Source: an uncultured Coriobacteriaceae bacterium
GTDB lineage: Bacteria > Actinomycetota > Coriobacteriia > Coriobacteriales > Atopobiaceae
Assembly: GCA_902786015.1 (NCBI GenBank)
Contig: CADAAU010000013.1
Span: forward strand, 62,001-126,000
Length of the DNA stretch: 64,000 bases
Direction: 5' to 3'
The notes below the pieces were generated by a model, which worked only from the letters and a program-made list of their open reading frames with translations, was not told the origin of the DNA and did no database searches. Position numbers and translations under genes: made by a program. Shown here piece by piece: positions 31,700-54,456 of this stretch (position 1 is the stretch's first letter; each line of letters opens with the position of its first letter).

Positions 31700-31711
31700 G
31701 ATGGTCTCCGT

Positions 31712-31840
31712 TTCTCTCGTCCGGACTCTAACCGTTGGCCTTGGATTCTCACCAAGTCAGCCGCTCTTTTGTGTGCGGCACGCGGGCTCGGCATTCGGAT
31801 GCCATCACCGCCAGTGGGGAATTTCACCCCGCCCCGAAAC
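31712..31840 (-). promoter_or_regulatory. FMN riboswitch (RFN element) controlling ribU-ecfA-ecfT
   Basis: Read on the minus strand it has the conserved RFN blocks in order: GGGGCGGGGTGAAATTCCCC, then CTGGCGGTGA, AGCCCGCG, GACTTGGTGAGAATCCAAGG, CCAACGGTTAGAGTCCGGA and the closing GAGA. With FMN bound it should reduce expression of the riboflavin importer. Confidence 0.95.
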
Positions 31841-31850
31841 TGACGCCAAG

Positions 31851-39970: not shown

Positions 39971-40079
39971 TAGTGCGTTCGATGGGTTCGGGTGACGGCA
40001 CACTTCGAACCTGGTCAGGGTCGGGAGACAGCAGCCATAAGGAGCCTCTGTCGGGTACCCGTTCCCATCGAGCGCACTA
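39971..40079 (+). ncRNA. ffs: Signal recognition particle RNA, small bacterial (4.5S) type
   Basis: About 109 nt. The ends pair (TAGTGCGTTCGATGGG with CCCATCGAGCGCACTA apart from one G-T). The apical domain IV is classic: CTGGTCAGGGTCGGGAGACAG with the GGGA tetraloop-type tip, then CAGCAGCCATAAGGAGCC for the asymmetric loop that binds Ffh M domain. The strong promoter upstream supports an independent transcript. It lacks the Alu domain. Confidence 0.95.
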
Positions 40080-40823: not shown

Positions 40824-40885
40824 GGCAAGCGATGGGGGTACTCCCCTTTGCCTTCATGCAAAGGGGAGTACCCCCATCGCTTGCC
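40824..40885. repeat. Palindromic repeat family A, copy 3 (full-length)
   Basis: Perfect 28-bp arms (40824-40851 and 40858-40885) with a 6-nt loop, located 38 nt after the dedA stop. A separate small hairpin, GCCTGCAG/CTGCAGGC, precedes it. Confidence 0.9.
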
Positions 40886-40946
40886 CTGAGAACTAACTCC
40901 CCGAGTCCCGTTAACAAGCTTAAAATTTCCTTAGCACTTGTAGCCA

Positions 40947-41105
40947 CGAGTGTACCCAAAATGTAACGAGGGGTATGTTTTCCCAGGCAAGCTATCTGCA
41001 AAGTGCAATTTGGGTACACTGCCTAAAATAGACAGTGTACCCAAATTGCACTTTTAAGGATGCTTATCTGGGACTATGCTGACATTCCAACAATTTGGGT
41101 ACGCT
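40947..41105. repeat. 159-bp repeat family C (MITE-like), copy 1
   Basis: Bounded by GAGTGTACCCAAA and its near complement TTTGGGTACGCT. A central inverted repeat has 21-bp perfect arms (41001-41021, 41033-41053). It matches the copy at 50682-50840 in length and layout. No gene lies between dedA and the dnaX promoter. Confidence 0.8.
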
Positions 41106-41231
41106 AAGCCCACCCTGAGGTCCGCCATGCTTTCAGAAAGTCGTTTGATTGCGGCGCCGTAAGGGTGTCAAAGATAAGTTTGCCCGAGTTTATCCTCCGC
41201 AGCGCGGTTTCTTGGCGGCGTGGCTTCGCGC

Positions 41232-41237
41232 TATACT
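41232..41237 (+). promoter_or_regulatory. -10 element upstream of dnaX
   Basis: TATACT, 32 nt before the chosen ATG at 41270; longer open-frame starts at 41165 would lie upstream of this promoter. Confidence 0.45.
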
Positions 41238-41269
41238 GTTTCTCACGAAATCGAGAGCCGGAGGGGCGT

Positions 41270-43603
41270 ATGGAGTCTCTGTACAGAAAGTACCGACCGC
41301 AGACATTTGCCGATGTGGTGGGTCAGCAGCATGTGGTGGGGACCTTGCAACGTGCCGTTATGGAAGGTCGCACGAGTCATGCCTATCTGTTTTGCGGTCC
41401 GCGTGGTACGGGCAAAACGACCATGGCGCGCCTGCTGGCCAAGTCGCTTATGTGTGAGCAGGGACCATCGCAGCTGCCCGATGGCACATGCGAGCAATGC
41501 GAGCTCATTGCGGCGGGAGAGCATCCGGACGTATATGAGCTCGACGCGGCTTCTCGGACGGGCGTCGACAACGTGCGCGAAGAGATCATCAATCGTGTGG
41601 GCTATGCACCGGTGCGTGGGCGCTACAAGGTCTACATCATCGACGAGGTCCACATGCTCACGACTGCGGCGTTCAACGCGTTGCTCAAGACATTGGAAGA
41701 GCCTCCGAGCCATGTAGTCTTTGTATTGTGCACGACGGATCCCCAAAAGATTCCCGCCACGATTCTCTCGCGCGTGCAACGGTTTGACTTTAGGCCAATC
41801 GGTAACGACGACATACACCGTCGTCTTGCGTACGTATGCGAACAGGAGGGCTTCGCATTTGAGGACGCAGCGCTTGACCTCGTGGTGCGCCACGCGCGCG
41901 GCGGTATGCGCGACGCCCTTTCCACGCTCGAGCAGCTTTCGGTGTTTGGTGGGGGGAGCATTACCGCAGCGGCCGCGCAAGACCTGCTGGGCTCGGTTCC
42001 CGGCGCCGAGATGGACCATGTGGTGGAGGCTCTTGCCGCGCGCGATGTCCCCATGCTGTTTTTGCAGGTGGGAGAGCTCATCGAGTCCGGTAGAGATCCC
42101 CTGCAGTTTACGCGCGACCTGGCCGCGCGCATACGTGACGTCTACGTCGTGGCCTTGGTGGGGCCGCGGCCAGAGGTGCTCGATCCGTCGGCTGACGTTA
42201 CCAAGCTGCAAGCCGAGGCCAACGCATTTGGGTCTGCCGATAGGCTCGCTCGTGTGCTTTCGCTTTTGGGCGGGGTTGTGCGCGAGATGGCAACCGCTCC
42301 AAATCAACGGCTCGTGCTCGAGATTGCCTTTACTCGAATCGCACGACCTGCGGAAGACCTTTCTCTCGATTCGCTGGCAGAGCGTGTGGCAGAGCTAGAA
42401 GGCAAGGTGCGGGCACTTCTTTCGGGTGGTGTGGTTCCCGCAGCAGCGACGGCTCAGGTGGCAAAGAATCCCGAGCCCGAGTCTGCTCAGCCGGCTGCCG
42501 CCGAGGTCGCTCCTGCTGTGTCGTCTGGGTACGAACAACCCCAGCCAACGTCTGAACCACCAGTCGAACCTGTGCCGACAGCTGTTTCCGGATCTGCACA
42601 GCCCGTCCCAACCCAACCGATGCAGCCCGCACAGCCTCCTCAACCAGCGCCAGCCCCGCAGAACGTACAGCCCCCGCAGCCCGTATCAGCCCCGCAATCC
42701 GCACAGGCCACGCAGCCTCAACCGGCGTGGCCCCAACCTGCATCCGTAGTGTCTCCTCAGCCGGCGCAGGCCCAGCCGGTACCGGCGGCACCACATCAAC
42801 AGGCATCCCAATCGCAGGGAACGCAAGCCTCGCAGGCGGTTGTCGATGCGGGCGAGTTGCAGCGCAGATGGCGAACGGTCGTCACCGAGATGATTTCGCG
42901 CTTGCCCTCGCGAGGGTCGCTTTTGAGCAATGCGATTGCGCGCTCTGATGATGGCTCGACCATAGAGGTGAGCCTACCCAAGGGTTCCTCGTTTGCACTC
43001 AAAATGCTCGAGCGCCCCGATATTCGGGCGGCGGTGGAAGAGGTGGTTGCCGAAGTCTTTGGCAAGAGAACCGTCACGTTCTGTGAGGGCATGGTCATGG
43101 CCGCCGCGGCAGCAGAGTCGGCTCCCATGCCAAGAACGACGCACGCTCCGCAGCTAGTCCAGGTTCCGCAGCCGGCTCCGGCTGTGCAGCCGGCCCCTGC
43201 TTCGCAGCCCGTGTCTGATTATCCCATGCCGTGGGATGAGCCTTCTGCCATGCCTGAGGCTTCCTTTGCGCCCGATCCAGTGGAACCGGTACCTTACGAC
43301 GAGATTGACGCAGCGGTGTATGAGCAGTCGCCGGCTTATGAACCCGCTCCGTATTCGCAGCCGGCACCGGTCCAGCGGCAAGCCCCGGCTCCGCAGCGCC
43401 CGTCTCAGCCGGCACCGACTGAGCAGTCGGCCCCGACGCCAAAACCCACATCTCAGCCAGCTCCGTCCCAACAGCCCGCTCCGACGTCCAAGCCAACCCC
43501 TCAGCCCGTGCCTCAGGCACCCGACGATCTTCCCGCTGACCTTGCCGCGGTTCTCGCCAACGCATTCGAGGTGTTTGGGGCCGACGTCAAAGTCAAGCGA
43601 TAG
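41270..43603 (+). CDS. dnaX: DNA polymerase III subunit gamma/tau
   Basis: 777 aa. Clamp-loader ATPase: MESLYRKYRPQTFADVVGQQ, Walker A GPRGTGKT at 43-50, the zinc-binding Cys cluster, DEVHML Walker B, and the SRC-like sensor TILSRVQRFDF. Domain III runs to about 380. Then come long Pro/Gln/Ala-rich linkers (about 385-530 and 620-760) around a folded tau domain (LQRRWRTVVTEMI to FCEG). GGAGGGG at 41260-41266 and the -10 box at 41232 fix the start. I saw no A-AAA-AAG frameshift site. First gene of dnaX-ybaB-recR. Confidence 0.95.
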   Translation: MESLYRKYRPQTFADVVGQQHVVGTLQRAVMEGRTSHAYLFCGPRGTGKTTMARLLAKSLMCEQGPSQLPDGTCEQCELIAAGEHPDVYELDAASRTGVDNVREEIINRVGYAPVRGRYKVYIIDEVHMLTTAAFNALLKTLEEPPSHVVFVLCTTDPQKIPATILSRVQRFDFRPIGNDDIHRRLAYVCEQEGFAFEDAALDLVVRHARGGMRDALSTLEQLSVFGGGSITAAAAQDLLGSVPGAEMDHVVEALAARDVPMLFLQVGELIESGRDPLQFTRDLAARIRDVYVVALVGPRPEVLDPSADVTKLQAEANAFGSADRLARVLSLLGGVVREMATAPNQRLVLEIAFTRIARPAEDLSLDSLAERVAELEGKVRALLSGGVVPAAATAQVAKNPEPESAQPAAAEVAPAVSSGYEQPQPTSEPPVEPVPTAVSGSAQPVPTQPMQPAQPPQPAPAPQNVQPPQPVSAPQSAQATQPQPAWPQPASVVSPQPAQAQPVPAAPHQQASQSQGTQASQAVVDAGELQRRWRTVVTEMISRLPSRGSLLSNAIARSDDGSTIEVSLPKGSSFALKMLERPDIRAAVEEVVAEVFGKRTVTFCEGMVMAAAAAESAPMPRTTHAPQLVQVPQPAPAVQPAPASQPVSDYPMPWDEPSAMPEASFAPDPVEPVPYDEIDAAVYEQSPAYEPAPYSQPAPVQRQAPAPQRPSQPAPTEQSAPTPKPTSQPAPSQQPAPTSKPTPQPVPQAPDDLPADLAAVLANAFEVFGADVKVKR

Positions 43604-43667
43604 CAAGCGATGGGTACTCCCCTTTGCCTGTATGAGTAAGGCAAAGGGGAGTATCCCCATCGCTTGC
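43603..43667. repeat. Palindromic repeat family A, copy 4 (full-length)
   Basis: Arms of 26 and 28 nt (43603-43628, 43640-43667) with one small gap. The first base is the last base of the dnaX stop codon. Confidence 0.85.
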
Positions 43668-43796
43668 TTCCGGGTGCGAACAGTGGCAGCCGGCAAGACG
43701 AAACGACGGTCTCTCGGTTGAGTTTTCCGTGACGCCGTTTGCGCATGTTACAATGCGGTGCCAATGATTAAACAAGAGAGAAAAGAGGGGCTTGCC

Positions 43797-44105
43797 ATGG
43801 ACATGGAAAAGATAATGGAGCAGGCGCGCATCATGCAGCAGCAGCTCATGGACGCTCAGGACAACATGGCTGGCATCGAGGTGTCTGCGACGGCAGGCGG
43901 CGGCATGGTAAACGTGAGTGCCACAGCCGACATGAAGCTCACCTCCATCTCCATTGACCCGGCCGTGGTCGATCCCGATGATGTAGACATGCTCGAGGAC
44001 CTTGTGCTTACCGCGGTCAACGCGGCGCTAGCAAAGGCCAACGAAGCGGCCAACAGCCAGGTCGCAGGCATCACGGGTGGTCTCAACATGCCTGGTCTCT
44101 TTTAA
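43797..44105 (+). CDS. ybaB: Nucleoid-associated protein YbaB/EbfC
   Basis: 102 aa, typical length. MEKIMEQARIMQQQLMDAQDNMAGIEV followed by the strand region GGGMVNVSATADMKLTSISIDP matches the YbaB fold, a DNA-binding dimer. GAGGGG at 43785-43790 is 6 nt from the ATG at 43797. Position between dnaX and recR is the standard bacterial order and confirms identity. The family A repeat and about 130 nt separate it from dnaX. Confidence 0.93.
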   Translation: MDMEKIMEQARIMQQQLMDAQDNMAGIEVSATAGGGMVNVSATADMKLTSISIDPAVVDPDDVDMLEDLVLTAVNAALAKANEAANSQVAGITGGLNMPGLF

Positions 44106-44110
44106 TCCCT

Positions 44111-44716
44111 ATGCCCGACGTCAACGATGGCCGTGCGCTGCAACGCCTGCTCGATGAGTTGGGTCGCCTGCCAGGCATAGGCCCAAAGTCCGCACAGCGC
44201 ATTGCCTACTATCTGCTCGAATCCGACGCGGAGCAGGGCAGGCGTCTTTCCAACGCAATTCTGGACGTCAAACGACAGGTGCATTTTTGTCCGGTTTGCT
44301 TCTCGTATGCTACGAGAGACACCTGCGATGTGTGTGCCGACTCCTCGCGCGATACGTCCACGATTTGTGTGGTGTCGGAGCCGCGCGACGTATCGGCGGT
44401 CGAGCGTACAGGTGCCTATCATGGCCTTTATCACGTTCTGGGCGGTGTAATCTCGCCCATGGACCGTATTGGGCCAGACCAGCTGCACGTGCGCGAGCTG
44501 CTCTCGCGCCTTGCGTCGGGTGAGGTGCAAGAGGTGATACTTGCCACGAATACCGATGTGGAGGGCGAGGCGACGGCGACGTATTTGTCTCGAATCATCA
44601 AGCCCATGGACGTGACGGTTACGCGGTTTGCCGTGGGCATGTCGGTAGGTGGCGAGGTCGAGTTGGCAGACGAGTTGTCGCTTGGCCGTGCGATTGAGGA
44701 TCGACGCGAACTATAA
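44111..44716 (+). CDS. recR: Recombination protein RecR
   Basis: 201 aa. Helix-hairpin-helix LLDELGRLPGIGPKSAQRIAYYLL, C4 zinc finger CPVCFSYATRDTCDVC, Toprim domain ICVVSEPRDVSAVERTGAYHGLYHVLGG and ATNTDVEGEATATYL, then the C-terminal GGEVELADELSLGRAIEDRREL. It acts with RecO/RecF in single-strand gap repair. It starts 5 nt after ybaB with no clear ribosome site, suggesting coupling to ybaB translation. Confidence 0.95.
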   Translation: MPDVNDGRALQRLLDELGRLPGIGPKSAQRIAYYLLESDAEQGRRLSNAILDVKRQVHFCPVCFSYATRDTCDVCADSSRDTSTICVVSEPRDVSAVERTGAYHGLYHVLGGVISPMDRIGPDQLHVRELLSRLASGEVQEVILATNTDVEGEATATYLSRIIKPMDVTVTRFAVGMSVGGEVELADELSLGRAIEDRREL

Positions 44717-44770
44717 GGTGAAAGTGGGCATCGTGGCTTGTGGCCGCGCCTTGCAATGGAAAGGGACGAC

Positions 44771-45424
44771 ATGTACTCAATTGACGACACCGACGACATG
44801 GGAATCAACGCGCCCACGCCCCTCGACACGGCTTCAATAAACAAGGGCGACTTCGCGCAACTCTCGAATGGACAGGGCGCCAAGTCAGCACGCCATGCCA
44901 AGCCCGCGGGTCACAAGGCCGAGACGGGTATGCCCCGTCGCATGATGGTCATCTTGTCCGTGGCCGCATTGCTCGTCATCGTGCTCGGCGTCGTGCTGTT
45001 TGTTCGCGTGCTCAATACGCCCGTCGCGGCCAATACCCAACAGCAGGTAATGCGTACTCAGGCGGGCGTGGACCAAAGCGTCACCTACAGTGGATCGACC
45101 TATTCCCTGCGAGAAGAGAACGGGAAATACTCGCTGGTGGAGTCGCATGCCGATGGCGATAAAAAAGAGGTCGTCGTGGGCGGTCTTCCGGGCACTCCTG
45201 TGAGCATTGTCCTTTTTGACGGCGCCGTGCTTCTTCCCGAGAATCTGCCCGACGGAACGTGGGACGTTTCGGTATATACCGTTGGCGTGGGATGGAGCAC
45301 TGTGGGAAGCCGCAATGGTACCCCGAGCAGCGGTCAGGGGACCATATCGGAGGCAAACCTCGACGGCTCCAAGCTGCTTCTGACAGTCGACGGCTCGACA
45401 GTCGAGGTGCCCCTGGTTTGGTAA
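44771..45424 (+). CDS. Hypothetical single-pass membrane protein
   Basis: 217 aa. The cytoplasmic N-terminus (about 65 residues, hydrophilic) is followed by one membrane helix, MMVILSVAALLVIVLGVVLFV, and an outside domain of beta character (VTYSGSTYSLREENGKYSLVES) of about 130 residues. I do not recognise a family. AAGGGA before ATG 44771 fixes the start; ATGs just upstream are in frame. It lies 54 nt after recR in the same direction. Confidence 0.65.
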   Translation: MYSIDDTDDMGINAPTPLDTASINKGDFAQLSNGQGAKSARHAKPAGHKAETGMPRRMMVILSVAALLVIVLGVVLFVRVLNTPVAANTQQQVMRTQAGVDQSVTYSGSTYSLREENGKYSLVESHADGDKKEVVVGGLPGTPVSIVLFDGAVLLPENLPDGTWDVSVYTVGVGWSTVGSRNGTPSSGQGTISEANLDGSKLLLTVDGSTVEVPLVW

Positions 45425-45454
45425 CAAGCAAAATCGACTGCGCGTATTGTCTGC

Positions 45455-45482
45455 GGCACAAACTTCCCAAGAGGTTTGTGCC
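45455..45482. repeat. Palindromic repeat family B, copy 3
   Basis: GGCACAAAC...GTTTGTGCC, 28 nt, just beyond the stop of the membrane-protein gene and next to the nth stop (convergent). Confidence 0.6.
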
Positions 45483-45485
45483 ACA

Positions 45486-46208
45486 TTATTGTTGGGGTGC
45501 CCTGCTGGTCTTTTGTCTGCGCTTCCCTTTGCCCTTGCTGGCCTTACCGGCACCATGGCGAACGGGGCGCTTGGGACAAAGGTCGTCGCACGGGCACTCG
45601 TCGCATTTGGCAAGGCGTGCCGTGCAGGTTGCGCGACCAAACCGTATCCATTCGGAGTTGACGCCACCCCAAAGCTCTTGCGGAATGATTGCGAGTAGGT
45701 CCTGCTCGGCGGCGAGCGGGGTCGTGGCGCGAGTGAGTCCCATACGCTGGGCGATTCTAAAGACGTGCGTGTCGACCGCAATGCCCTCAACGATGCCAAA
45801 CGCCTTGTTGAGCACGATGTTTGCCGTCTTGCGACCGACCCCGGGCAGGCGAACGAGCTCCTCCATCGTGCGCGGGACCTCACCACCATAGTCCGTCATG
45901 ATCATTTGCGCACACCCAACGCAGTGCTCCGACTTGGTCCGAAAGAACCCTAGGCGGTGGATGACCTCGGCGACGTCGGAGGGACTGGCTTGAGCCATCG
46001 CCTCCGGTGTTCCCCACCTCTCAAAGAGGGTGGGGGTTACCGCGTTTACGGCGACATCAGTGGTCTGCGCCGAAAGAAGCACGGCGATGACCAGCTGGAA
46101 CGGGGTTTTCCAATCCAAGGCACTCGGCTCGTCCCCATAGAGCTTGTCCATGCGATGACAAAACTCCGTAACGCGCGCGACCTTCGACTTCTTTGACTCA
46201 CGTGGCAT
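45486..46208 (-). CDS. nth: Endonuclease III (DNA glycosylase/AP lyase)
   Basis: 240 aa. HhH-GPD enzyme removing oxidised pyrimidines. Catalytic Lys lies in LPGVGRKTANIVLNKAFG and Asp in VDTHVFRIAQRMGL. The 4Fe-4S ligands are CTARLAKCDECPCDDLCP (C-x6-C-x2-C-x5-C). It ends in a basic tail (KASKGKGKRRQKTSRAPQQ). Start ATG 46208 follows GGAG; a further ATG at 46241 lies only a few bases from a minus-strand TATACT (46247-46252) that could be the promoter. Confidence 0.94.
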   Translation of the reverse strand: MPRESKKSKVARVTEFCHRMDKLYGDEPSALDWKTPFQLVIAVLLSAQTTDVAVNAVTPTLFERWGTPEAMAQASPSDVAEVIHRLGFFRTKSEHCVGCAQMIMTDYGGEVPRTMEELVRLPGVGRKTANIVLNKAFGIVEGIAVDTHVFRIAQRMGLTRATTPLAAEQDLLAIIPQELWGGVNSEWIRFGRATCTARLAKCDECPCDDLCPKRPVRHGAGKASKGKGKRRQKTSRAPQQ

Positions 46209-46255
46209 CTGTTTTCTCCGTCGTTTGGCTCCAGAAGACATCGCCCTAAGTATAA

Positions 46256-46351
46256 GGCAGGCGATGGGGATACTCCCCTTTGCCTGGACGGCCCATAGGC
46301 TGGCTTGTGGGCCCTCAAGTAAGGCAAAGGGGAGTATCCCCATCGCCTGCC
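46256..46351. repeat. Palindromic repeat family A, copy 5 (full-length, long loop)
   Basis: Perfect 29-bp arms (46256-46284, 46323-46351) with a 38-nt loop that itself holds a small hairpin (GGCCCATA...TGTGGGCC). In the divergent gap between nth and glgB; the nth promoter candidate abuts it. Confidence 0.9.
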
Positions 46352-46534
46352 TCTAGGAGTGAACACCAATAAAAGACAATAAAATGCCGCTAGATTGCGA
46401 ACAAAAACTCGGTTTCTTCGCGAAAATAACCCGTGCGCCGAAGGTTGCGGCACGTCTGCCCAATAGTCAAAAAACTTGCGAGCATGCCTTCCTAAACTAA
46501 TAGAGCCTATACCGCTCACGAAGGGATAACTGCA

Positions 46535-48784
46535 ATGAGCAAGCCAGACAAAGATTTTTTGCTTAGTAACGACGATCTGTATCTGTTCGCCAAGGGCGAG
46601 TGGTTCCGTAGCTACGAGAAGCTCGGTGCACATCCGGCGATTCTCGACGGTGTCGAGGGCTACCACTTTGCCGTGTGGGCACCCGATGTTCGCTCGGTAC
46701 ACGTAATCGGCGAATTCAATGGCTGGGATGCCGGGGCCACGGCGCTCACGCTCACGCCGGTAGGAGGCGTATGGTATGGCTTCGTGCCGGGCGTAACGGA
46801 GGGCCAGCTCTACAAGTACGTGGTAGAGACTCGTGCGGGCGACGTGCTGTACAAGGCCGACCCGTATGCGTTCCAGGCCGAGCTCATTCCTGGCACCGCA
46901 TCTCGTACGGCAGAGATCGACTCCTACGAGTGGAACGATGGCGAGTGGATTAAGCAGCGCCAGTCGCAGGACCACATGAAGCGCCCGCTCAACATCTTTG
47001 AGGTCCATCTGGGCAGCTGGAAGCGCCATAAGGACGGACTCACCGCCTTTGGCACCGAGGCGACCGAAGAAGATGAGGCCACGGGTTCTTGGTATACCTA
47101 CGACGACCTCTCCGACGAGCTGGTCTCCTATGTGAAGGAAATGGGCTACTCGCACATCGAGCTCATGCCGGTTATGGAGCACCCGTTTGACGGCAGCTGG
47201 GGATATCAGGTTACCGGATACTATGCGCCCACTTCTCGCTATGGCAATCCCAAGCAGTTCAAGCACTTCGTTGACGCCTGTCACCAGGCCGGCATCAGCG
47301 TGATTTTGGACTGGGTGCCCGGTGGGTTCTGCCCCGACGAGCATGGTCTGGTGCATTTCAACGGCACCAAGCTCTACGAGAAGGAAGTCCATCCCAACTG
47401 GGGAACCTACAAGTTCAACTTCGAAAAGGGCGAGGTTCGCACATTCCTCATCTCCAACCTTCTGTACTGGATTGACGAGTATCACGCGGACGGCATCCGC
47501 ATGGACGGCGTCACCTCCATGCTGTATCTCAACTTTGGCATCGACGATCCTGGCCAAAAGAAATTCAATCCCGATGGCTCCGAGAACGACTATCCGTCCA
47601 TCGAGTTCGTCCGCCAGTGCAACACCACCATCGGCCAGTATCATCCCGACGTCATGATGATTGCCGAGGAGTCCACCGCTTGGCCGCTCGTCACCCGTCC
47701 GCCTGAGGTTGGTGGCCTTGGCTTCAATTACAAGTGGGACATGGGCTGGATGAACGACACCCTGCGTTACTGCCAGACGGACTTCCCGTATCGTCCGGGC
47801 AACCACAGCCTGCTTACCTTCTCCATCATGTATGCCTTCAACGAGAACTTCGTCCTGCCGCTTTCTCACGACGAGGTCGTACACGGCAAGTGCTCGCTCA
47901 TCACGCGTCAGCCTGGTGACTATTGGCGTCAGATGGCCGGTCTGCGCTCGCTCGCCTTCTATCAGACCACGCATCCAGGTGGCCAGCTCAACTTCATGGG
48001 CAACGAGATCGGCCAGTTCATCGAGTGGCGCTATTACGAGGGCATCGAGTACTTCCTCGCCGAGGAGTACGAGGGCCACAAGAAGCACCAGCAGTACATT
48101 GCGGCGCTCAACAAGTTCTACCTCGAGCAGCCTGCATGCTGGGAGAAGGCCTACGTGGAGGACGGCTTCGAGTGGATTGACGCCAACAACTCCAATCAGT
48201 GTGTCGTAAGCTTCGTTCGTCATGGCGACAACCCCGACGACGACCTGCTCATCGTCATCAACTACGAGGTCAACCCCTACGAGGGGTATCGCATTGGCGT
48301 GCCGCGTGCGGGCTATTGGCGCGAGATCTTTAACTCCGACCGCGAGGAGTTCGGTGGCTCTGGCGTCACCAACGACGACGTTCGCTTCGAGTCCGAAGAG
48401 AAGCCTTGGAACCTGCGCGAGAACTCCATCAAGGTGCGTGTTCCGCCGCTGGGCGGCGCCGTATTCAAGTACGACGGACCTCTGCCGCCCAAGGAAAAGA
48501 AGCAGTCTCGCCTAGAGAGGGTCGAGGCCGCAGTGCAGACGCACGTGGGTGCCCACACCACTAAGGTTAGTGCTCCTGCTCCGAAGCCTGCCCCAAAGAA
48601 GGCGGCGGCCAAGGCAAAGACGGCCGCAAAGAAGACGGTGGACAAGGCTAAGGCGGCTGCCGATGAAGCCGCGCTCAAGGCAAAGCGCTCCGCTGCCGCA
48701 AAGAAGGCCGCGGCAACGCGTAGGGCCAACGCCGCCAAGAAGGCTGCTGAGGAAGCTGCCAAGAAGGCGGCCAAGAGCAAGTAG
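46535..48784 (+). CDS. glgB: 1,4-alpha-glucan branching enzyme with basic C-terminal tail
   Basis: 749 aa. GH13 enzyme making alpha-1,6 branches in glycogen. CBM48-type N-domain (HFAVWAPDVRSVHVIGEFNGW), the barrel with GYSHIELMPVMEHPFDGSWGYQVTGYYAPTSR, nucleophile Asp324 in GIRMDGVTSM, acid Glu378 in IAEESTAWP, and LPLSHDEVVHGK. The first 640 residues complete a normal enzyme. The last 100 are extremely Lys/Ala-rich (AAKAKTAAKKTVDKAKAAA and similar), like histone H1 tails. AAGGGA precedes the ATG. A terminator follows. Confidence 0.93.
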   Translation: MSKPDKDFLLSNDDLYLFAKGEWFRSYEKLGAHPAILDGVEGYHFAVWAPDVRSVHVIGEFNGWDAGATALTLTPVGGVWYGFVPGVTEGQLYKYVVETRAGDVLYKADPYAFQAELIPGTASRTAEIDSYEWNDGEWIKQRQSQDHMKRPLNIFEVHLGSWKRHKDGLTAFGTEATEEDEATGSWYTYDDLSDELVSYVKEMGYSHIELMPVMEHPFDGSWGYQVTGYYAPTSRYGNPKQFKHFVDACHQAGISVILDWVPGGFCPDEHGLVHFNGTKLYEKEVHPNWGTYKFNFEKGEVRTFLISNLLYWIDEYHADGIRMDGVTSMLYLNFGIDDPGQKKFNPDGSENDYPSIEFVRQCNTTIGQYHPDVMMIAEESTAWPLVTRPPEVGGLGFNYKWDMGWMNDTLRYCQTDFPYRPGNHSLLTFSIMYAFNENFVLPLSHDEVVHGKCSLITRQPGDYWRQMAGLRSLAFYQTTHPGGQLNFMGNEIGQFIEWRYYEGIEYFLAEEYEGHKKHQQYIAALNKFYLEQPACWEKAYVEDGFEWIDANNSNQCVVSFVRHGDNPDDDLLIVINYEVNPYEGYRIGVPRAGYWREIFNSDREEFGGSGVTNDDVRFESEEKPWNLRENSIKVRVPPLGGAVFKYDGPLPPKEKKQSRLERVEAAVQTHVGAHTTKVSAPAPKPAPKKAAAKAKTAAKKTVDKAKAAADEAALKAKRSAAAKKAAATRRANAAKKAAEEAAKKAAKSK

Positions 48785-48814
48785 GTTCAAGTCGCAAACA
48801 TACTGGGTTAGGAG

Positions 48815-48850
48815 GCGCCGCGCGGACTTTGGTCGCGCGGCGCTTTGTTT
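48815..48850 (+). terminator. Rho-independent terminator after glgB
   Basis: GCGCCGCGCG (48815-48824) pairs with CGCGCGGCGC (48834-48843), then TTTGTTT. Confidence 0.9.
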
Positions 48851-48919
48851 CGTGCAAAATATGATTGAGACACCATAATATAATCATTGCAAGGTTATTT
48901 TCGGTGAGGGAGGGGCAGC

Positions 48920-50308
48920 ATGAAGAAAGGGCTAAAGATTTGCACCATAGGCGGAGGAAGCAGCTATACGCCAGAGCTCATGAATGGGTTTATTAAGCGA
49001 TACGACCGTCTGCCGGTGCGCGAGATCTGGCTCGTGGACGTTGAACGTGGCCGCGAGAAGCTCCAGATCGTCGGCGCGCTTGCGCAACGCATGTGGGACA
49101 AGGCTGGCCACGACGTGAAGGTGCACCTTACGCTCGACCGTCGTGAGGCTTTGCGGAATGCCGATTTCGTGACCACGCAGTTCAGAGTCGGTCTGCTTGA
49201 GGCACGTATAAAGGACGAGCGCATTCCGTTTTCGTATGGGATGCTGGGGCAAGAAACCAACGGTGCCGGCGGCATGTTCAAGGCGCTACGTACCATTCCC
49301 GTGATCCTTGACATAGTGGAAGAGATGAGGGAGCTTTGTCCCGATGCATGGCTCGTGAACTTTACCAACCCGAGCGGCATGGTGACGGAGGCAGTGATTC
49401 GCTATGGTGGGTGGGAGCGCTGCATAGGCTTGTGCAACGTGCCTATCGGGGCAATGCTCACGGAACCAAAGCTGATAAACAAAAGCTTGGATGAGCTTGT
49501 GTTCCGGTTTGCCGGCATAGATCACTTCCACTGGCATCGTGTCTTTGATGCGGCGACGGGCACCGAGGTAACAATGGACATTATTGACGGCATGCTTGAC
49601 CCGAGCAAGGATGACGGTACGCCGGCAAATATCCACAACATTCCGTTTGCCCGCGAGCAGCTTGAGCATCTGGGCATGATTCCGTGCGGATATCATCGGT
49701 ATTACTACCTGCAGGGTGACATGCTTGATGACGGCTTGCGCGAGTTCAACAGCGAGGAGGGAACGAGGGCTCAACAAGTGAAGGCGGTGGAGGACGAGCT
49801 CTTTGAGCTCTACAAAGATCCCAACCTCGCCGAGATGCCCGAACTGCTCAGTAAGCGTGGTGGAGCGCACTACTCCGACGTTGCTACCGAGTCCATAGCA
49901 GCCATTTACAACAATGCCAACGAGCACATCGTGTGCTCGACGCTCAACCGTGGGGCCATTCCCGACTTGCCCGATGATGCTGTGGTACAGGTCTCGAGCT
50001 TCGTGGGCGGTGCCGGAGCACAGCCAGTGGCGTTTGGGCCTTTGCCTGCTAGCGCGCGGGGTTATTTGCAGCTGATGTGGAACATGCAACAGCTGGTGGA
50101 GGAGGCGGCTGTTACCGGCAGCTATGGTGCGCTGCTCGAGGCCGTTGCGCTTAATCCACAAACACCTGCTGGCAGCGTCGCAAAGCAGGTAATCGACGAA
50201 TTGCTCGTTGCCCACGAGCCGTATCTGCCGCAGTTTGCAACAAAGATTGCCGAACTCAAGGCCGCTGGCGTCACCATCAATGACGATGTTGCCCGTAGCT
50301 TGAGCTAA
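48920..50308 (+). CDS. GH4 family 6-phospho-beta-glucosidase
   Basis: 462 aa. NAD- and Mn-dependent glycosidase. N-terminal Rossmann motif KICTIGGGSSYTPELMNGF; LRNADFVTTQFRVGLLEARIKDE; MFKALRTIPVILDI; LVNFTNPSGMVTEA; the metal-binding Cys in GLCNVPIG and the following His in AGIDHFHWHR. The ETNGAGG segment agrees with the 6-phospho-beta-glucosidase branch (LicH/CelF). Upstream a TATAAT at 48879-48884 could be the -10 box. There is no PTS gene in the window, so the phosphorylated disaccharide must be imported by a system elsewhere. Confidence 0.9.
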   Translation: MKKGLKICTIGGGSSYTPELMNGFIKRYDRLPVREIWLVDVERGREKLQIVGALAQRMWDKAGHDVKVHLTLDRREALRNADFVTTQFRVGLLEARIKDERIPFSYGMLGQETNGAGGMFKALRTIPVILDIVEEMRELCPDAWLVNFTNPSGMVTEAVIRYGGWERCIGLCNVPIGAMLTEPKLINKSLDELVFRFAGIDHFHWHRVFDAATGTEVTMDIIDGMLDPSKDDGTPANIHNIPFAREQLEHLGMIPCGYHRYYYLQGDMLDDGLREFNSEEGTRAQQVKAVEDELFELYKDPNLAEMPELLSKRGGAHYSDVATESIAAIYNNANEHIVCSTLNRGAIPDLPDDAVVQVSSFVGGAGAQPVAFGPLPASARGYLQLMWNMQQLVEEAAVTGSYGALLEAVALNPQTPAGSVAKQVIDELLVAHEPYLPQFATKIAELKAAGVTINDDVARSLS

Positions 50309-50681
50309 ATCTATGGATGGGGCAGTCCTGTTTGGCGCGGCGGGTGGAGCTGTCCCAATTACTCGGACGTCGCTTATGCGGACGGCTGTCGATGGCGCGT
50401 TCAGGTACGTGGCGCGGCACAGGATGAGATTTTTTCACCTTGGATTAAGTGGTCAGGGCTGGCGGGGTCGAGTTTTTGGTGATGATGGCTAGCGTTACAT
50501 AAAGCTAACAGTGTGCTGCCTAGGAGAGGGTCCATCTAATCAAAAAAAAGCGATATCGCAATAGCTTTGGGCTCCTTCTGTGGTGGCGTGGCTTGGATAT
50601 CCCGCCGAATCTCAATCGGATTGGGTTTGACGAGGCCGTAACTTAAATACAGGCTGAATATATTCTGAAATGTTTGGACTT

Positions 50682-50840
50682 CGAGTGTACCTAAATTGTA
50701 GGGAGGACTGCAAAAGCCCAGTTGGCGAGAAGGCCAAATGCAATTTGGGTACAGTAGCTAAAATAGCCACTGTACCCAAATTGCATTTGTCATGATGCCT
50801 ATCTGGGGTTTTGTGTCGAGCAAAACATTTTGGGTACACT
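50682..50840. repeat. 159-bp repeat family C (MITE-like), copy 2
   Basis: Same plan as the copy at 40947: outer GAGTGTACCTAAA and TTTGGGTACACT, and a central inverted repeat with 20-bp perfect arms (50736-50755, 50769-50788). Conserved TATCTGGG lies right of centre. The 50309-51008 gap otherwise shows no coding signal. Confidence 0.8.
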
Positions 50841-53250: not shown

Positions 53251-54456
53251 AAACGAAAAGCTCTTTTAGACCAGAATTGACATGGCCGGAGTCCAATTGT
53301 TGTCCGGGCCCTCCCGTATAGTCGGTGTCGCCAAACATCCCGACAAAGCAGGAGGACCCGTATGTACGAGAGTGTACTACAGGGCGCGCTGGAGCTGCCG
53401 CTCGCGCAGAAGAAGTCGCTGATAGAGTGCCTGAAGGGCGCGGTGCTCGCGCAGATGTCGAGCGTGCACGCCGGCGACCCGTCCGAGTGCCCCCGCTGCC
53501 ACCACGGCCACGTGGTCAGGAAGGGGCGCGACGGCAAGGGTCGCCAGAGGTGGCTGTGCCGCGGCTGCGGGAGGACCTTCGGGACGAGCACGCTCGGGCT
53601 GCTAGCCCAGTCGAAGCTGGGACCGGCCGTCTGGGCTTCCTACGTAGAGCACATGGTGGAGGGCGAGTCGCTGCAGAGGTGCGCGGACCTGTGCGGCGTG
53701 TGCCTCAAGACCTCGTGGTTCATGCGAATGCGCGTGTGCGAGGTCATGCGCAACGTGCTCGCGCCGTTCCGCGGGGGCGCCGGCCTTTCCGTGCAGATCG
53801 ACGAGAAGTACCTGAGCGAGTCCTTCTGCGGCAACCGCGACCGCGCGCGGGTCAAGATGCCCAGGCAGGCGCACGCCAACGGGAACTCGGTGCGCAAGAG
53901 GGGGCTCTCCAAGCTCAAGGCGTGCGTCGTCACCCTGGTCAACGACCTCGGCGACTGCGCGTGCGAGGTCGTCGGGCGGGGCAAGCCCACGAAGGGCGAG
54001 GTCAAAGCGGGGATCGAAGGCTGCGACCTCGAGGGCTCGACGGTGACGACCGACTCGCTCGCGTCCTACGCGTCGCCGCTGAGGGACGCCGGGGTGGCGG
54101 CGCACAGCCGCTACAACGCGAGCGTCGGCGACGGCGACGGGGTGGGGATGGTCAACGCGCTGCACGAGCGGATGTCGTCCTTCCTCTCGCGGTTCAACGG
54201 GGTGTCGACGCGCAGGCTCCAAAGGTACATGTGGTGGTTCTGCTGGTCCGAGCAGGTGAGGAGGTCCGACTCCTCGTCGGTCGAGGCGTTGCGCGCCCAC
54301 GTCGCCAACGGCACCTACCGGGTGACGCGCAGGATGCTCACCGACGAGCCGCAGCCGTTCTGGGAGTACTGGGAGGGCAGGATGCCGGAGGTAACGGAGG
54401 ACGACCTTTGGGGACCGGAGGCGATGTCAATTCTGGTCTAAAAGAGCTAAACGAAA
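53251..54456 (+). mobile_element. IS1595-family insertion sequence with target duplication
   Basis: The element is 53259-54448 (1190 bp). Its 25-bp terminal inverted repeats (53259-53283 and 54424-54448) are perfect complements starting AGCTCTTTTAGACCAG. The direct repeat AAACGAAA stands at 53251-53258 and again at 54449-54456, an 8-bp target duplication as expected for IS1595. One transposase gene is inside. The insertion split a family D repeat. Confidence 0.95.
53362..54441 (+). CDS. IS1595-family transposase
   Basis: 359 aa, apparently intact. N-terminal zinc ribbon CPRCHHGHVVRKG and WLCRGCGRTFG, as in the IS1595/ISXO2 group. The catalytic part has IDEKYLSES, VTTDSLASY, and MVNALHERMSSFLSRFNGV with the STRRLQRYMWWF block that identifies the family (DDN/H-E type). 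The gene is richer in G+C than its surroundings, consistent with recent arrival. Its stop lies inside the right terminal repeat. A TATAGT shortly upstream may serve as -10. Confidence 0.95.
   Translation: MYESVLQGALELPLAQKKSLIECLKGAVLAQMSSVHAGDPSECPRCHHGHVVRKGRDGKGRQRWLCRGCGRTFGTSTLGLLAQSKLGPAVWASYVEHMVEGESLQRCADLCGVCLKTSWFMRMRVCEVMRNVLAPFRGGAGLSVQIDEKYLSESFCGNRDRARVKMPRQAHANGNSVRKRGLSKLKACVVTLVNDLGDCACEVVGRGKPTKGEVKAGIEGCDLEGSTVTTDSLASYASPLRDAGVAAHSRYNASVGDGDGVGMVNALHERMSSFLSRFNGVSTRRLQRYMWWFCWSEQVRRSDSSSVEALRAHVANGTYRVTRRMLTDEPQPFWEYWEGRMPEVTEDDLWGPEAMSILV

Follow-up and report, generated by a model that had tools for sequence, protein, structure and literature searches.

Dispersed four-site palindromes in Coriobacteria and the uncharacterised gene family that adjoins them

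Results

Two four-site palindromes lie in the window

A 64,000-nt stretch of an uncultured Coriobacteriaceae genome (assembly GCA_902786015.1, contig CADAAU010000013.1, positions 62,001 to 126,000; hereafter the window) carries two palindromic elements of 159 bp each, correctly placed by a first-pass annotation at 40947-41105 and 50682-50840. Each element is built from four sites, termed A (GTGTACCCAAATTG or a near relative), in the order > < > < and with a rigid 58/27/58 spacing of their core decamers; the sites start at 40950/41006/41035/41091 in copy 1 and 50685/50741/50770/50826 in copy 2. The annotation had counted the A motif four times per element, which holds within one base; only three of the four core decamers (TTTGGGTACA or its complement) are exact, the fourth having one mismatch. 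The core CTAAAATAG, as described there, is present in both elements (41023-41031 and 50758-50766), and a B module with a consensus of about CAAAACCCCAGWTRRC, read by eye, occupies the middle of both halves of each element. A scan of the window for the four-site geometry at up to 12 mismatches recovered only these two places, at 4 mismatches each (best of three shuffled windows 15, 12 and 15), and no third copy. The 9.6 kb between the two copies hold genes of housekeeping look, judged by eye. The features of the two elements are as follows.

40947-41105, no strand: element copy 1, 159 bp, with a DedA-like gene (ends 40785) to the left and a dnaX-like gene (starts 41270) to the right; gene names by eye
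40950-40963, plus: A1 site GTGTACCCAAAATG, copy 1
41006-41019, minus: A2 site, copy 1
41023-41031, plus: core CTAAAATAG, copy 1; the core recurs in the genus
41035-41048, plus: A3 site, copy 1
41091-41104, minus: A4 site, copy 1
40982-40986, plus: CCCAG, centre of the left B module, copy 1
41068-41072, plus: CTGGG, centre of the right B module, copy 1
40919-40923, minus: outward TTAAG box left of copy 1
41132-41136, plus: outward TTCAG box right of copy 1
50682-50840, no strand: element copy 2, 159 bp, 374 bp past a glycosidase-like gene (ends 50308; name by eye)
50685-50698, plus: A1 site GTGTACCTAAATTG, copy 2
50741-50754, minus: A2 site, copy 2
50758-50766, plus: core CTAAAATAG, copy 2
50770-50783, plus: A3 site, copy 2
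50826-50839, minus: A4 site, copy 2
50717-50721, plus: CCCAG, centre of the left B module, copy 2
50803-50807, plus: CTGGG, centre of the right B module, copy 2
50642-50669, minus: three outward TT(A/C)AG boxes left of copy 2 (at 50642, 50654 and 50665)

The A sequence is genome-specific and the architecture is shared within the genus

The first-pass annotation had staked its reading on the existence of further copies. Searches with both window elements recovered 15 beyond the window pair, giving 17 intergenic copies spread over many contigs of this genome (G000, an assembly of 59 contigs; G001, G002 and G314 denote other genomes, C a contig and L a locus), and the architecture was also found in relatives. 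Core decamer starts were 58, 27 and 58 bases apart in all 17 copies, save two halves at 57. The assembly has 64 sites at 0-1 mismatch, every one of them inside a 159-bp element; 2-mismatch sites also occurred outside them, where a reversed control likewise gave matches. Pairwise identity among 15 copies was 0.90 for the A sites and 0.28-0.32 for the outer filler, against 0.25 expected by chance. Hence, sites and geometry are held and the rest is near random. A second, smaller subfamily of the same build, with GTGTACACCAAAA as its A sequence, comprised four copies, one standing behind its gene and three recovered through the core pattern.

The exact A motif was absent from 59 relatives, and the exact motif pattern gave 0 matches in public genome contigs and 0 in viral contigs, sets that perhaps do not include the window's own genome. 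The motif is thus genome-specific. A core pattern, GTACA-N5-TAAARTA-N5-TGTAC, recovered the same architecture in seven of 150 genomes, including this one, all seven belonging to this genus, and the A sequence differed from genome to genome among them. In public genome contigs the pattern matched 81 stretches, 27 of them from metagenome-assembled genomes (MAGs) titled Coriobacteria, Coriobacteriales or Atopobiaceae (two of these, truncated at the stretch end, were unscored), and an eighth carrier of the architecture was a named Coriobacteriia MAG (L093). The other 54 stretches (one unscored) and 11 matches in viral contigs were judged to be chance, their arms and outer sites failing to extend.

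Across several genomes 47 copies were assembled, leaving out a chance match (L135) and a copy cut by a contig end (L059). The length from GTGTAC to GTACAC was 155 in 37 of them and 153-156 in 46. No copy overlapped a predicted gene, as called by a simple gene finder that misses atypical genes, including this genome's partner gene on C2 (see below). Where both neighbours were called (44 copies), 31 pairs of neighbours ran in the same direction, 8 were convergent and 5 divergent. A shared orthologous place for elements near dedA, or in L015 and L063, was considered and rejected, since the flanks show different places.

The elements are paired with an uncharacterised gene family

In four genomes, the neighbours of elements belong to a single uncharacterised protein family of ~375 aa. 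In the genus, a profile search returned 29 strong homologues (E <= 1e-60), spread over 13 of its 16 genomes, and in 28 of the 29 an element stands directly behind the stop codon, 27 having the four-site form and one (L344) the two-site form. L344 and L343, the single strong homologue that lacks an element, rank last in strength among the 29. The geometry scan recovered 24 of the 27 four-site elements at up to 12 mismatches (one shuffle each, 15-19; upstream regions, 13-18). The remaining elements (L216, L226 and L337), with outer sites unlike the inner ones or with shifted spacing, were first assigned by eye. Tested independently, the core palindrome had 0-5 mismatches over 20 arm positions in 24 of the 29 genes (best of 20 shuffles 8-13), with 0, 5 and 1 for L216, L226 and L337, respectively. 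Nine of the 29 genes were looked at in one scan round only. Two gene fragments, L219 and L220, likewise carry an element.

Gene and site also match by genome. Two strong homologues are present in this genome, C2:270212-271324 with a GTGTACCCAAATTG element and C17:42517-43647 with a GTGTACACCAAAA element, and the A sequences behind them are, one to one, those of the genome's two element subfamilies; five weaker family matches (E 1e-24 or worse) are also present. In genomes with the gene, 39 of 41 dispersed copies were closest to a gene of their own genome (one tie counted as a match, one as a miss). Protein distance and site distance were correlated (Mantel r 0.51; 0/5000 permutations) over 18 of 22 genes, L216, L219, L220 and L226 being left out. 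An own A site with up to 2 mismatches was found in the 200 bp upstream of only 1 of 17 genus genes.

No significant match to the partner family was found in Pfam, NCBIfam, PADLOC or PHROGs, and the weak paralogues L234 and L235 and the homologue L247 had no Pfam match. Ten neighbour proteins of six homologues, scanned against Pfam, were ordinary or unknown and included no DUF1814 toxin. Among 20 neighbour proteins of this genome's own copies, one was a PDDEXK_2 'transposase family' protein, 440 bp from L003, and no other transposase was detected. A gene finder trained on the codon usage of this genome overlooked partner genes, L228:1132-2256 among them, in part or altogether, which points to atypical codon use.

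Some homologues outside the genus carry half-elements

At E <= 1e-40 the family was detected in 54 of 297 genomes and 18 of the 107 genera of the order, its own genus included. Three of 24 loci outside the genus, all from genus g9, had the four-site form, and twelve more had inverted sites of 0-2 mismatches behind the gene (4-5 in shuffles). A check of both sides of the gene covered 18 loci, those set aside (L247-L251 and L253) having shown nothing convincing on either side earlier. At least 8 of the 24 loci (L245, L252, L255, L258, L260, L261, L264 and L265) had two-site elements with the same A both before and behind the gene, and L256 and L257 are probably also doubly flanked in this way. 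In five of the eight doubly flanked genes the upstream element begins 91-118 bp before the guessed start codon. G314 had one isolated site and six two-site elements (83-84 bp), four of which lie away from the gene and two next to it. Judging from these arrangements, the half-element probably came first, and the four-site form seems to result from bringing two halves together.

The partner protein is predicted to combine two domains

An AlphaFold model of the ~375-residue protein had a predicted local distance difference test score (pLDDT) of 87 and a predicted template modelling score of 0.84. Residues 185-338 aligned in VIA-align to the endonuclease-like structure 3hrl (Z 9.0), to Vsr (1vsr; Z 8.0) and to the catalytic domain of I-Bth0305I (3r3p; Z 7.9). 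Residues 1-182, modelled alone at pLDDT 91, matched AbiEi (Z 7.7) and Rv2827c (Z 5.5) among 160 chains compared, the next rows falling to 4.3 and 2.1; on AbiEi residues 67-195 the root-mean-square deviation was 3.8 over 119 aligned positions. The protein is therefore modelled as an AbiEi-C-terminal-like domain followed by a Vsr/DUF559-type PD-(D/E)XK fold. Across 20 proteins, D235 and H252 were invariant, D248 nearly so, and N246 was an invariant asparagine. DUF559-type proteins carry a carboxylate, glutamate, in their E-x-D-G motif, and N246 stands at what we take to be the position of this glutamate. A search of PDB sequences with the family profile returned nothing significant.

Copy-specific pairing is found in the inner filler and the B module

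The first-pass annotation had read the stem change from TACACTG/CAGTGTA to TACAGT/ACTGTA as compensatory. Ten of the 47 elements, whose length was not exactly 155, were left out of the identity, pairing, folding and G-U analyses, leaving 37 copies. Complementarity within copies was then compared with that between copies over 500 permutations, for 15 of the 17 own copies. The change is real in the window pair, yet the A2:A3 stem to which it belongs had no within-copy excess (0.912 vs 0.903; 111/500). Compensatory change was instead borne out in the inner filler (0.560 within vs 0.384 between; 0/500) and in module B (0.616 vs 0.524; 8/500). The outer filler had no copy-specific pairing (0.255 vs 0.304). 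For 22 copies from other genomes and the second subfamily, every part lay above most permutations, in a set that is not independent because copies of one genome share motifs.

Over the whole stem of the 37 copies, 83 G-U pairs stood against 95 A-C mismatches, no excess over within-genome permutation (112/500); the inner filler alone leaned toward G-U (37 vs 22 A-C), within chance (61/500). Predicted folding was strong on either strand, about -46 to -102 kcal/mol, and about equal on both, and Rfam had no match over either window element. Copy-specific pairing without a G-U excess would be left by template switching between arms, by a cruciform or by a hairpin of DNA, with no sign of selected RNA, and on these sequence patterns a DNA hairpin is favoured over RNA.

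Elements persist at orthologous places in sister species

The sister species G001 and G002 have 18 and 14 elements, respectively, one of the latter being an apparent assembly duplicate. Twelve G001/G002 pairs shared at least one flank and 79-99% of the element. Leaving out a second L331-L314 pair, differing positions in these pairs were fewest in the A sites (48/672; 7.1%), followed by the core (21/204; 10.3%), the B module (55/480; 11.5%) and the filler (100/480; 20.8%). The slower divergence of A sites indicates that selection, or conversion between copies, maintains them in place. In G001, a complete type I Wadjet system, JetABCD (L331:6653-13571), is bounded by two four-site elements in direct orientation. 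At the same place G002 has a single element and no Wadjet, with the left flank of the first G001 element and the right flank of the second.

Flank boxes and other features

Flanks of the GTGTACCCAAATTG subfamily carry outward TT(A/C)AG boxes at about +15, +26 and +37/38 on both sides, an 11-base period. Counted in either direction, 49 boxes fell in the 3,298 bp near elements vs 26 in 23,800 bp further off. Outward boxes were not seen at copies of other genomes or of the second subfamily. The boxes resemble the direct repeats of response regulators.

A separate family of near-perfect hairpins of 62-78 bp is represented in the window at 40824-40885, with many copies in some genomes of the genus. 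Hairpins of this kind were also located at L188:1051-1118, L188:1877-1950, L190:1046-1111 and L190:1886-1963. In 5 of the 11 loci examined they enclose a Y1 (RAYT-like) gene, with genome-specific sequence, and amount to a REPIN-RAYT-like system in Coriobacteria. The G000 hairpin beside the Y1 gene differs from the window hairpin at 40824-40885. A RAYT was considered as the partner of the 159-bp elements and rejected, the sole Y1 match of G000 (C10:55818-56150) being flanked by the other hairpin family.

Elsewhere in the window, an open frame resembling, by eye, a zinc-ribbon insertion-sequence transposase lies at 53362-54441, 2.5 kb from copy 2. Rfam matches identified a flavin mononucleotide (FMN) riboswitch at 31705-31845 and a bacterial signal recognition particle RNA at 39979-40074.

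Discussion

On balance we favour the view that the window elements are scattered representatives of a repeat population tied to a single gene, a pair like REPIN and RAYT built on a different enzyme. Every partner gene would have a recognition sequence (A) of its own, with a matching element following the stop codon. The elementary building block would be a two-site half, A-B-A', of about 70-84 bp, and in the genus two halves would stand head to head around the TAAAATA core to give the rigid palindrome of 155-159 bp. The protein most likely recognises the A sites and may act as a nuclease. A protein-dependent process, probably strand cutting at the hairpin form of the element, might scatter copies into intergenic space, much as RAYT transposases are thought to spread REPINs; we infer this route of copying, and consider mobilisation by the protein to be about an even proposition. 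Copies would then stay in place for a long time with their A sites maintained.

Several results weigh against this reading. L343 has no element behind the gene, 8 of the 24 loci outside the genus (L246-L250, L253, L254 and L259) have no convincing element, and the element of a further one, L251, is doubtful. Of the 13 distinct G002 elements, 12 have a G001 counterpart at the same place, so movement would be slow at best. Empty sites, which the first-pass annotation had proposed to look for in sister strains, were sought by comparing the sister species, and no clean one was found; one candidate region was rearranged. By eye, no target duplication was visible in 47 flank pairs, whose ends are not defined by any empty site. 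For the protein, the alignment tool itself rates structural Z values of this size as middling, and 9i05_Xr, a ribosomal chain, ranks among the top rows for residues 185-338 with Z 8.4. The AbiEi match covers mostly the C-terminal domain, with the winged helix unmatched. Foldseek against PDB gave no significant match for the whole protein or its N-terminal part, and confidence in the Vsr/DUF559-type fold of residues 185-338 is only moderate because Foldseek alone was not significant. Finally, with the invariant N246 in place of the motif glutamate, the nuclease may be inactive or altered.

Other explanations draw on parts of the same evidence. The protein might be an AbiEi-like repressor and the elements its operators or regulon sites, with no mobility, which we regard as unlikely. 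AbiEi binds two inverted 23-bp repeats and Rv2827c four, each in its own promoter (PMC7319586). Outside the genus, the upstream two-site elements 91-118 bp before the guessed start in five of eight doubly flanked genes would suit such a role, as would the maintenance of A sites in place. Within the genus, however, an own A site upstream was the exception (1 of 17 genes) and the element stands behind the stop instead. The dispersed copies lie mainly between genes of the same direction (31 of 44, with 8 convergent and 5 divergent), and a regulon fails to explain the copy-specific complementarity of the hairpin or a new site sequence in all copies of a genome. It is rather improbable that the elements are sites of genome structure or recombination, that is, fixed binding or exchange points, or a protein sponge, between which defence and other cassettes are gained and lost. 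Persistence at orthologous places and the Wadjet set between direct elements in G001, with hybrid flanks around the single element of G002, fit that idea. The Wadjet case is one instance only, though, homologous recombination between any two direct repeats would give the same picture, and the 9.6 kb between the window copies hold genes that look, by eye, like housekeeping genes.

The annotation had also offered a miniature inverted-repeat element or a structured RNA. As a description, dispersed, intergenic, short and palindromic repeats suit the former term; a classical miniature inverted-repeat transposable element (MITE), a non-autonomous derivative of a DDE transposon with GTGTAC ends, is very unlikely. 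Such an origin would account for short, dispersed, intergenic copies with inverted ends, and the four-site element does resemble a fusion of both ends of a larger unit that leaves out the gene. Against it, the proposed search for a transposase with matching terminal repeats led nowhere, all 64 sites of 0-1 mismatch being in 159-bp elements, and no larger unit with these ends was found in the 59 contigs, although an assembly gap or another strain may hold one. Inspection by eye revealed no target duplication, and the partner family matched nothing significantly in Pfam, NCBIfam or PADLOC, known transposase families included. Internal A sites are also unusual for decaying MITEs, as is a length that hardly varies (46 of 47 within 153-156). 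A structured RNA or bidirectional terminator we consider highly improbable. Strong predicted folding on either strand, the intergenic place and the G-U lean of the inner filler, itself within chance, are in its favour; it is disfavoured by the lack of an Rfam match and of a stem-wide G-U excess, by the near-equal folding of both strands and by the absence of a fixed orientation to genes.

The favoured pairing of a repeat population with its own gene has parallels in known systems. REPINs are described by Bertels and Rainey (2011; PMC3116915) as extragenic palindromic pairs of inverted repeats with a spacer between them, hairpin-forming and closely tied to specific transposase genes. Like them, the elements here are inverted doublets in extragenic space with hairpin potential, and the cognate gene adjoins its own repeat (28 of 29 strong homologues of the genus). 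Unlike a RAYT, the partner is no Y1/HUH tyrosine transposase, with no PF01797 match in the partner proteins scanned, and four sites are set in a rigid 58/27/58 geometry. Given that the defining enzyme differs, we keep the system apart from REPIN-RAYT. AbiEi and Rv2827c resemble the partner protein in the fold of its N-terminal 182 residues, which match the AbiEi C-terminal region, and AbiEi-type proteins bind two or four inverted repeats per promoter (PMC7319586). They differ in the winged helix, for which no match was obtained here, in the DUF1814 partner that was absent among the ten neighbours scanned, and in the placing of the sites, which here are behind the gene and dispersed, not only in a promoter. 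Vsr/DUF559-type endonucleases and the homing endonuclease I-Bth0305I share the predicted PD-(D/E)XK-type fold of residues 185-338, with the invariant asparagine in place of the catalytic glutamate as the difference. We know of no dispersed cognate palindromes for these endonucleases. MITEs are similarly short and dispersed, with inverted ends and no coding capacity, and differ in the transposase with these ends that the assembly lacks, in target duplication, none being visible by eye here, in internal sites and in near-constancy of length. No description of such a pairing of repeats with a nuclease-fold gene was found in the literature covered, most subscription papers and all bioRxiv preprints lying outside that coverage.

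To our knowledge, RAYT transposases are the main case in which a bacterial repeat population has a dedicated enzyme (PMC3116915). There is perhaps an even chance that the elements and their gene form a new Coriobacterial class of repeat and enzyme, with no descent from RAYTs or DDE transposases, in which a Vsr-fold protein bearing an AbiEi-like domain recognises a sequence specific to its gene and copies the palindrome belonging to it into intergenic DNA. Specificity and repeat population would change together by lineage; the ancestor would be a gene between two half-elements, and the four-site palindrome the two halves joined without the gene. Gene-specific palindromes accompany 28 of the 29 strong homologues of the genus and some of the relatives elsewhere in the order, which gives more than twenty natural pairs of protein and recognition sequence, in which specificity and its change are directly testable. 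The pairing ties genome-wide repeats to a predicted Vsr-type fold and AbiEi-like domain, and it may offer a second, independent example, beside REPINs, of how bacterial palindromic repeats spread and persist.

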